The notes under the pieces are model-generated. The model made no database searches. It worked only from the letters and a program-made list of their open reading frames with translations, and was not told the DNA's origin. Both the position numbers and the translations under genes were made by a program. From assembly GCA_035556555.1 (NCBI GenBank), contig DATMES010000005.1, forward strand, positions 1-40,399: a stretch of 40,399 bases of DNA, given 5' to 3'. How positions within the stretch are numbered: the first letter of the stretch is position 1; every line of letters starts with the position of its first letter. This DNA is from Frankiaceae bacterium (GTDB lineage Bacteria > Actinomycetota > Actinomycetes > BP-191). Positions 27,723 through 39,692 of this stretch are shown in pieces.

Positions 27723-28184
27723 GTGAACAAGTCCGAGCTGATCGACACGATCGCCGAGAAGGTCGGCGGACGCGCCGCGGCGGCGAAGGCCGTCGACGCC
27801 GTGCTCGACAGCATCATGGCCGCGGTCGCCAAGGGCGAGCGGGTCGGGATCGTCGGCTTCGGGACGTTCGAGAAGCGCGTCCGCGGCGCCCGCACCGCGC
27901 GCAACATCCGCACCGGCGCGACCATCAAGGTCAAGGCGACGTCGGTGCCGGCGTTCCGCGCGGGCTCCGGCTTCAAGGAGACCGTGGCGAGCGGCGGCAA
28001 GAAGACCGGCGCGAAGAAGGCGGCCCCGGCGAAGGCGGCGAAGGCCGCCGCGAAGCCCGCTGCCAAGAAGACGGCCGCGAAGGCGGCTCCGGCGAAGAAG
28101 GCCGCGACGAAGGCCCCCGCCAAGACCGCCACGAAGGCGGCGGCCAAGAAGGCTCCGGCGAAGAAGGCGGCCAAGGGCCGCTAG
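27723..28184 (+). CDS. hupB: HU-family nucleoid protein with Lys/Ala/Pro tail
   Basis: 153-residue DNA-binding protein. Residues 1-90 are a complete HU domain ([40 protein letters not shown], then [12 protein letters not shown]-like strands). The remaining 60 residues are a basic tail of repeated KKA, PAKK and AAKK units, the mark of actinobacterial HupB/Hlp, which bends, compacts and protects DNA. GTG at 27723 is chosen rather than GTG 27714 because ACGGAGG ends at 27714, giving 8-nt spacing, and because the family starts with MNK. Its own promoter and a 3' hairpin suggest a single-gene unit. leuCD, often just before hup in other actinomycetes, are absent. Confidence 0.95.
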
Positions 28185-37449: not shown

Positions 37450-38211
37450 ATGACGTCACGGCTCCTGTTCCCGCCCGCGGTCGCGGTCGCGACCCTCGCC
37501 CTCGCCGGCGTCGCCGTGGCGAGCACGACGATCCCCATCAAGGACTCGCAGGTGCCCGTACGGGCGTCGGAGTTCGCGGAGCACGAGGACTGCGCGTTCC
37601 CCGGGCTCGCCACCCAGACGACCCAGTGGGGCTGGCACTTCGTGCTGCCGGGCGGCGAGGCGACGTTCGTCTCGCTGACGGCGGAGTTCGAGGACGCGGG
37701 CACCGTGACGCTGCCCGGGTCCGACGGGGCGTTCGTCCAGGACGGCAAGGGCGCGGTGATCTGGACCGCGACCGACGACACGCTGCTCGCCGCCGAGGCG
37801 ACGATCGAGGGCAGTACGCCGCAGGGCGACTTCGTGCTCTCGCACACCTGCCTGCCGGCGCCGACGCAGACGCCGACCCCGGAGGTATCCGGGAGCCAGA
37901 CAGCCACCCCGACGCCAGAGGTGTCAGGGAGCCAGACAGCCACCCCGACGCCAGAGGTGTCAGGGACCGAGACGGCAACTCCCTCGGGCACGCCGTCCGC
38001 CACCGTGTCGGGTGTGCGGTTCACGAACACTCCGTCCGGGTCGATCTCCCCGACGGTGCTCGGCGTGAAGCAGACCAAGGGCGGCGTGGCCGGTACGGCG
38101 CTGCCGTCCACCGGCTCCGCGCTGCTCGGCCTGACGGCGCTGTCCGCGCTGCTCCTCGCGACCGGCGTCGTGCTCACGAGCAGCCGGCCCAAGGGCAGGC
38201 ACGCCCGCTGA
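37450..38211 (+). CDS. LPxTG-type surface protein with tandem repeats
   Basis: 253-residue predicted surface protein. The signal peptide is about 1-25 (PPAVAVATLALAGVAVAS). A globular region (26-135) has two Cys (HEDCAFPG, SHTCLPAP), likely a disulfide. A Thr/Pro-rich stalk contains a 12-residue repeat, EVSGSQTATPTP. The C-terminus has LPSTGSALLG, a hydrophobic helix (about 222-243) and RPKGRHAR, a complete cell-wall sorting signal. GAGG lies 6 nt before the ATG. No sortase gene is in the window. Function unknown. Confidence 0.8.
   Translation: MTSRLLFPPAVAVATLALAGVAVASTTIPIKDSQVPVRASEFAEHEDCAFPGLATQTTQWGWHFVLPGGEATFVSLTAEFEDAGTVTLPGSDGAFVQDGKGAVIWTATDDTLLAAEATIEGSTPQGDFVLSHTCLPAPTQTPTPEVSGSQTATPTPEVSGSQTATPTPEVSGTETATPSGTPSATVSGVRFTNTPSGSISPTVLGVKQTKGGVAGTALPSTGSALLGLTALSALLLATGVVLTSSRPKGRHAR
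37882..37965 (+). repeat. 36-bp coding tandem repeat
   Basis: Two full units (37882-37917, 37918-37953) and a third of 12 nt, encoding EVSGSQTATPTP. The units are nearly identical, the first differing only in its VSG codons (GTATCCGGG against GTGTCAGGG). Such repeats in stalks can change copy number by slippage. Confidence 0.85.
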
Positions 38212-38496: not shown

Positions 38497-39090
38497 CTAG
38501 CGGACGACCAGCTGCGCGTACATGAGCGGGTGGACCTGGCAGAAGAGCACGTAGTCGCCCGGCGTGAGCGGGCTCTCCTTCCAGGTCAGCCCCGTGCTCT
38601 CGCCGCTGTCCACGATGTCGGTCGCCACGATCGGCTTCTGCGTCCACGGCTGCTTCGCGTCGGGCACGACGGCGACGTTGTGGGGGAGCTGCGACGGGTT
38701 GGCGAACTCGATCCCCGGGAAGCCGGCCCGCACGACGTAGCATCCCTGGTCGAACTTCATCTCGGTGGCGTGCGCGGCGACGTGCAGCTCGTCGGCGGGG
38801 TACTCGAGGTCGCAGAACTCGTAGCGGCCCGTGAGGTCGGTGACGCCGGCGGGCGGGGTCGACGCCGGGGTGATCGAGGGCGCGGCAGGCGTGACCGTAC
38901 GCTCCGGCGCCGCGACGAGCGCGACCACCGATGCGGTCGCGAGGACCGGTGCCGCGAACAGCGCGGTCGTCCTGGCGGCGCGGCGGCGCCGGATGCGCCG
39001 CGGGAGACCGCCGGGCATGGGAGGTACGGCGGGCGCGTCGCCCGCCCGCTCGCGCAGCAGCGCGGCGAGGTCGTCGGTCGGGTCAGTCAT
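38497..39090 (-). CDS. Membrane protein with amicyanin-like blue-copper domain, likely anti-sigma
   Basis: 197-residue protein. Residues 1-40 are cytoplasmic and Arg-rich (MTDPTDDLAALLRERAGDAP), residues about 41-62 a transmembrane helix (TTALFAAPVLATASVVALVA), and about 95-197 an extracytoplasmic cupredoxin domain. Type-1 copper ligands are visible: His137 in QLPHNVAVVPD, then Cys184, His187 and Met190 in LFCQVHPLMYAQLVV. The C-x2-H-P-x-M spacing is that of amicyanin (CTPHPFM). Its start overlaps the upstream ECF sigma gene by 8 nt, the usual place of an anti-sigma factor, and the short cytoplasmic segment fits that role. Inference: a copper- or redox-sensing anti-sigma. An alternative is a simple electron carrier under sigma control. 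Confidence 0.8.
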   Translation of the reverse strand: MTDPTDDLAALLRERAGDAPAVPPMPGGLPRRIRRRRAARTTALFAAPVLATASVVALVAAPERTVTPAAPSITPASTPPAGVTDLTGRYEFCDLEYPADELHVAAHATEMKFDQGCYVVRAGFPGIEFANPSQLPHNVAVVPDAKQPWTQKPIVATDIVDSGESTGLTWKESPLTPGDYVLFCQVHPLMYAQLVVR

Positions 39091-39571
39091 CGGGCACCTC
39101 GTCGGTGGAGAGGTCGGCGCGCAGGGCGGCGAGGCCGCGCGCGGTGGCGGACTTGACGGTGCCGGGGCGGCAGCCGAGACGTTCGGCGACGTCGGCCTCG
39201 GACAGGTCGAGGTAGTAGCGGAGGACGAGCGCCGCCCGCTGCCGGTACGGCAGCCGCAGCAGCGCCGCCCAGAGACGTTCGCGGCCGGCCACGTCGGGGA
39301 GGTCGTACGGCACCGGCGTCGCCGCCGCCGCATGGCTGCGTTCGAGCGTGAGCCTGCGGGCGCGGTTGCGGACGCGGTTGACGACGGCGCGGTGCAGGTA
39401 CGCGCCGAACGCGTTCTCGTCGCGCAGCCCCCCGATCCGCGACGCCGCGCGAAGGAAGGCCTCCTGCGCCACGTCCTCGGCCGCGGCGCGGTCACCGGTG
39501 AGCAGGTACGCGAGCCGCGTCGCGCCGGGGAGGTGCGCGCGGTACAGCTCGCTCACCCGGTCGGAGGGCAC
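39083..39571 (-). CDS. SigE-family ECF RNA polymerase sigma factor
   Basis: 162-residue ECF sigma factor. Region 2: LYRAHLPGATRLAYLLTGDR and AAAEDVAQEAFLRAASRIG. Region 4, after a linker: LLRLPYRQRAALVLRYYLDL, SEADVAERLGCRPGTVKSAT, RGLAAL. Length and motifs match the Streptomyces SigE-like subfamily. GTG 39571 is chosen because GGGGAGGG lies 5 nt upstream; the open frame goes back to 39652. A GGAACC and, about 15 nt on, CGTGTC at about 39645-39619 (minus strand) resemble an ECF promoter, hinting at autoregulation. Coupled to the cupredoxin membrane protein by an 8-nt overlap. Confidence 0.9.
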   Translation of the reverse strand: MPSDRVSELYRAHLPGATRLAYLLTGDRAAAEDVAQEAFLRAASRIGGLRDENAFGAYLHRAVVNRVRNRARRLTLERSHAAAATPVPYDLPDVAGRERLWAALLRLPYRQRAALVLRYYLDLSEADVAERLGCRPGTVKSATARGLAALRADLSTDEVPDD

Positions 39572-39692
39572 CGCGACCCTCCCCTCGTCCGCGTAGGTGG
39601 TCGTCACGGGAGAGAGACACGCGGCGACCGTTCCGGGTTCCACCGTAGACAAACCTCACGACGCCGCTGCGCGGCGCCGCGGGGGCCCCGGA

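Follow-up and report, generated by a model that had tools for sequence, protein, structure and literature searches.

The known role of blue-copper proteins is electron transport, and the locus described here raises the question of what such a domain does in a membrane protein whose gene overlaps that of an ECF sigma factor. The locus lies in a 40,399-nucleotide stretch of DNA from a Frankiaceae bacterium (GCA_035556555.1, contig DATMES010000005.1), which is called the window below. The reading that we moderately favor is that of an autoregulated ECF sigma factor paired with a single-pass anti-sigma factor, whose outer domain would be a type-1 copper sensor of copper occupancy or redox state. 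The features concerned are all on the minus strand, and residue numbers are those of the membrane protein, hereafter the partner.

39616..39641, minus: promoter of ECF type, GGAACC-N14-CGTGTC, immediately before the start codon of the sigma gene (motif match)
39083..39607, minus: SigE-family (TIGR02983) ECF sigma factor, 174 aa, GTG start (model matches)
39083..39090, minus: 8-base start/stop overlap ATGACTGA of the sigma and partner genes, also present in sister genome G002
38497..39090, minus: single-pass membrane partner (putative anti-sigma factor) with a cupredoxin outer domain, 197 aa, ATG start (sequence, family match)
38971..39090, minus: cytoplasmic segment, residues 1-40, Cys-free, sigma-associated module with a predicted helix at 5-18
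38902..38970, minus: transmembrane helix, residues 41-63 (hydropathy)
38815..38901, minus: Pro/Ala/Thr-rich linker, residues 64-92 (sequence)
38500..38814, minus: cupredoxin domain, residues 93-197 (PF00127, alignment, PDB profile matches)

The sigma gene and its overlapping partner

The sigma factor scores 142.4 bits against the TIGR02983 model (SigE-fam_strep), barely above the cut-off of 141.55, and matches both Sigma70_r2 and Sigma70_r4_2 over their cut-offs, which places it in the SigE family. An earlier note on this DNA had described a SigE-like sigma factor overlapped by the partner gene, which the family score and the 8-base overlap bear out; the pair was located correctly in that note, but the end given there, 39571, corresponds to an in-frame GTG that lies 12 codons inside the sigma gene, which in fact extends to 39607. 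The topology that it had claimed, with a short cytoplasmic segment, one helix, and a blue-copper domain, also stands, as hydropathy gives a single membrane helix at 41-63 between residues 1-40 and the PF00127 domain. A profile search of the genome contigs with the pair alignment as query returned no relatives, and a scan of genome contigs with the sigma factor as query returned no orthologue above 54% identity. In the 3.98-Mb genome (G000), 46 places match the window's sigma factor, an unusually rich set for a genome of this size, against 25 and 39 in the two sister genomes.

Conservation within the genus

Conservation of the gene pair had been suggested as a check, and the pair was indeed found in the sister species G002 (locus L010), with the same gene order, promoter, and 8-base overlap; the sigma factor is 80% identical, and the partner is 44% identical and keeps all ligands. 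A chance overlap of the two genes was ruled out by its retention in two genomes. In both the window and G002 the pair is flanked by a PLP-dependent enzyme gene and ddl. The third genus member, G001, has no orthologue of the sigma factor or of the partner, and 9 bases separate its PLP-enzyme gene from ddl, a clean absence of the pair. Since both genes are present together in G002 and absent together in G001, the module was gained or lost as a unit.

Identity between the two partners is uneven along the protein, at 62% in the cytoplasmic segment, 35% in the helix, 30% in the linker, and 42% in the cupredoxin domain; the 62% that makes the cytoplasmic segment the best-conserved part of the partner fits an anti-sigma role. 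The dN/dS ratio for the pair is uninformative, with G+C at 95-97% of third codon positions.

Two repeat-bearing regions of the window were also recorded. Adjoining the pair, and likewise between the PLP-enzyme gene and ddl, a gene at 37450-38211 (plus strand) contains about three tandem repeats of 36 bases (TPTPEVSGSQTA) and codes for a secreted product with an LPSTG-like sorting signal at its C-terminus; this surface-protein gene is missing from the equivalent place in G002 and G001. Positions 28040-28171 hold Lys/Ala/Pro-rich tandem repeats (GAAGGCCGCCACGAAGGCC...) like the tail of a histone-like DNA-binding protein.

A sigma-associated N-terminal segment

Residues 1-40 of the partner contain no Cys and no His, so the H-x3-C-x2-C motif of the class I zinc anti-sigma factors (ZAS) is missing, and a zinc anti-sigma factor was ruled out. 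The partner also falls far short of the CU044_5270 family model (NF038083), with 11.8 bits against a cut-off of 100. Class II, CnrY-like anti-sigma factors have a cytoplasmic segment of less than about 50 aa with two helices that embrace sigma2 and sigma4; the partner's segment, at 40 aa, is within this length, and one helix (5-18) is predicted in it at low confidence. AlphaFold models made without an alignment were not usable, the pLDDT being 40 for the whole partner and 36 for the cupredoxin domain alone.

More was learned from the neighbors of related proteins. A profile built from the window and G002 partners only was used to search 394 genomes of the class and 396 of the phylum, and many of its matches cover just the N-terminal ~60-100 positions of the partner. 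A sigma gene lies directly upstream of these N-terminal relatives in 22/22 of the loci first fetched and in 36/40 of those fetched later (one of the 40 was already in the first set), giving a total of 58/62 checked; among the other four, some (L223, L244) may be loci at which the wrong reading frame was taken. Because generic single-helix proteins would not so consistently adjoin sigma genes, the N-terminus is best regarded as a sigma-associated module. Together with the position of the gene, the topology, and the co-inheritance of the pair, this supports the view, already put forward in the earlier note from position and topology, that the partner is an anti-sigma factor; as far as sequence and analogy allow, this assignment is well supported.

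The same note had expected an unusual class of anti-sigma factor, given the missing zinc motif. That expectation is not supported, because short zinc-free N-termini are the usual condition in the partners of this sigma subfamily and have experimental precedents in Tt-TolB and CnrY. Among 178 distinct sigma/partner pairs, gathered by similarity to the window's sigma factor or partner so that their proportions are no census, 114 have a short N-terminus without a zinc motif followed by a helix; the cytoplasmic part is Cys-free in 112 of these, and the median helix start is near 43. The H-x3-C-x2-C motif occurs in 38/178, and only two of the gathered pairs, both in this genus, have a cupredoxin partner.

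Outer domains exchanged on a constant inner segment

Outside the genus, the nearest sigma factors (L205, L206, and L211) are 51-53% identical, come from other classes of the phylum, and have membrane partners that share their N-terminus with the window's partner. The one of these partners that was scanned, L205, has a DUF4232 outer domain (PF14016, 61.9 bits); those of L206 and L211 resemble the DUF4232 type in appearance, and DUF4232 next to sigma factors is itself a candidate sensor domain. Of the other partners that share this N-terminus, one carries a PD40 beta-propeller, and several gave no match to Pfam. Beside more distant sigma homologues, this place is taken by canonical zinc anti-sigma proteins with the H-x3-C-x2-C motif, and the gene overlap is 4 bases. 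A Myxococcota MAG (L076, JANQFK010000003.1) also has a sigma factor with 47% identity to that of the window, next to a 133-aa single-helix protein, possibly through transfer or a mis-binned contig.

It had been stated beforehand that sigma homologues paired mostly with unrelated neighbors would speak against the proposal. For the N-terminus such pairing was not observed (58/62 adjoin a sigma gene), and for the outer domain it was (DUF4232, propeller). A constant inside with a variable outside is the pattern predicted for an anti-sigma factor with swapped sensors, and the same inner segment bearing different outer domains reads as sensor domain swapping rather than as a refutation of an anti-sigma role.

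The exchange of outer domains also lends some weight to a different account, rather improbable in our judgment, in which the partner is an anti-sigma factor but its cupredoxin senses protein contact, cell-wall stress, or proteolysis, the copper being structural or merely ancestral. In other partners that share this N-terminus the outer domain is a beta-sandwich or a propeller, for which we know of no metal site, and a fast-diverging outer domain could serve another role. The outer domain of the anti-sigma factor RsiV acts as a receptor for a protein, lysozyme (PMC4183432). Against this account, all four copper ligands are retained in both species though the domain has diverged to 42% identity.

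The copper domain

The outer domain matches PF00127 (Copper-bind) at residues 103-196, with 23.6 against a gathering score of 21.2. The four type-1 copper ligands named in the earlier note (His137, Cys184, His187, and Met190) proved exactly right, all being present in the partner and invariant across the aligned related domains. The ligand loop, C-x2-H-x2-M, is of the amicyanin type; the domain does not pass the amicyanin equivalog model (15.2 against 110.2 bits). C93 and C117 are likewise invariant in the aligned related cupredoxin domains of this subfamily and probably form a disulfide. Searched against the PDB, a profile made from the domain and related sequences matched auracyanin, amicyanin, and plastocyanin with E-values of 1e-11 to 1e-8, among them auracyanin A (1.4e-11) and amicyanin (4e-10). 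The outer domain has a complete type-1 copper site and is likely to bind copper.

The domain is most closely related, at 40-44% identity, to the cupredoxins at the C-terminus of cytochrome c oxidase subunit II (COX2) in the same genus, which have the same Cys pair and ligands; the grouping in a tree has moderate support (88/77), with long branches. COX2 with an extra C-terminal blue-copper domain occurs in all three genus members (L013, G000:C1:232779; L014, G002:C48:59427; L011, G001:C29:15976). This kinship, and the occurrence elsewhere in the phylum of membrane-anchored cupredoxins without sigma neighbors, are what one would expect if the partner were no regulator but a membrane-anchored electron-transfer cupredoxin, cotranscribed with the sigma factor and a target of it. 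We consider this unlikely: the N-terminus is specifically the sigma-associated module, the overlap is typical of sigma/anti-sigma pairs, and cupredoxins that lack that N-terminus do not lie beside sigma genes. A plain lone cupredoxin was rejected on the same N-terminal segment.

Promoter and regulon

The motif GGAACC-N14-CGTGTC precedes the sigma gene in the window and in G002 with identical -35 and -10 elements and spacing, and transcription would start near the GTG codon of the sigma gene. Exact matches number one in G000 and one in G002, both at the sigma gene, and none in G001; an exact match solely at its own operon supports autoregulation of the sigma factor, as judged from the motif. 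No regulon beyond the operon was found by the promoter motif in G000, G002, or G001. One-mismatch matches are near the level of a reversed control in G000 (16 vs 12) and exceed the control in G002 (20 vs 6) and G001 (21 vs 3), and the excess is not creditable to the sigma factor because G001, which is without it, shows 21 vs 3. Near the cupredoxin and COX2 genes the motif gave a single mismatched match, at one G002 locus. As no wider regulon was found, no copper-gene target backs a copper signal.

Relation to known systems

In Actinomycetota, the partners of sigma factors of the SigE family (TIGR02983), among them the CU044_5270 family (NF038083), commonly have a short N-terminus with a basic stretch and one helix, and their genes overlap by 4 or 8 bases, 8 in the window's pair. 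Their outer domains are DUF4232, a beta-propeller, or unassigned, whereas the window's is a cupredoxin.

A measured parallel in layout is Tt-TolB of Thermoanaerobacter tengcongensis, which has a cytoplasmic segment (1-39), a helix (39-61), and a large outer domain, and is encoded directly after the gene of an autoregulated sigma factor; its residues 1-39 bind Tt-RpoE1, the protein inhibits transcription, and Tt-RpoE1 recognizes its own promoter (PMC3397946). Unlike the window's partner, it has a TolB domain of ~580 residues and no cupredoxin, and the likeness is one of layout rather than established N-terminal ancestry. Tt-TolB also bears on the sign of regulation, which sequence alone does not give. 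That the partner might instead activate the sigma factor, as a co-activator or membrane recruiter with the cupredoxin still the sensor, seems very unlikely, given that this measured protein of like layout inhibits (PMC3397946) and that canonical zinc anti-sigma factors take the same place next to related sigma factors.

CnrY, the class II anti-sigma factor of CnrYXH in Cupriavidus metallidurans, is a membrane protein of a metal-responsive system that clamps an ECF sigma factor with a short, zinc-free cytoplasmic segment (PMC4598750, PMC7406223); in contrast to the window's pair, its metal sensor is a separate protein, CnrX, for Ni/Co, and there is no cupredoxin. For CorE of Myxococcus xanthus, also an ECF sigma factor, a response to copper and to its redox state has been proposed, but the sensing element is a Cys-rich extension at the C-terminus of CorE itself, with no anti-sigma factor described (PMC10141476). 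Amicyanin, plastocyanin, and auracyanin have the same domain and ligand set as the outer domain, with the loop as in amicyanin, but are soluble or peripheral electron carriers with no fused sigma-associated segment; the COX2 cupredoxin is fused to the oxidase subunit and has no sigma gene adjacent. No anti-sigma factor with a cupredoxin, blue copper, or azurin domain was found among the open-access papers searched. The anti-sigma layout itself is ordinary, and a cupredoxin sensor domain in that place would be new.

Proposed role

In the anti-sigma mechanism that we propose, which takes in sigma binding, copper binding, the direction of the response, release, and target genes, the partner's first ~40 residues would tether the sigma factor to the membrane, probably by means of a short helical clamp resembling the N-terminus of CnrY or Tt-TolB. 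The outer cupredoxin would bind one type-1 copper and serve as sensor, the signal being a change in copper occupancy or in the Cu(II)/Cu(I) state, the latter governed by the respiratory chain. This signal would alter the outer domain or expose the Pro-rich linker to proteolysis, and the freed sigma factor would transcribe its own operon from the GGAACC-N14-CGTGTC promoter. That copper or redox state may be the signal is suggested by the retention of the ligands and by the role of outer domains in such proteins. More tentatively, and with some doubt on our part, the blue-copper sensor could have been recruited from the cytochrome oxidase cupredoxin tail of the genus, and the sigma factor would then directly read the redox poise of respiration or the supply of copper outside the membrane.

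The searched data hold two examples of the fusion of a cupredoxin to a sigma partner, both in one genus. If the proposal is true, this would be, as far as we found, the first blue-copper protein to act as a transmembrane transcriptional sensor. A blue-copper domain in place of the usual outer domain would give a direct read-out of extracytoplasmic copper or of respiratory redox state, and the family would combine one sigma-holding module with exchangeable sensors. By this logic of exchange, the unassigned outer domains found beside SigE-family sigma factors would be candidates for undiscovered sensors.
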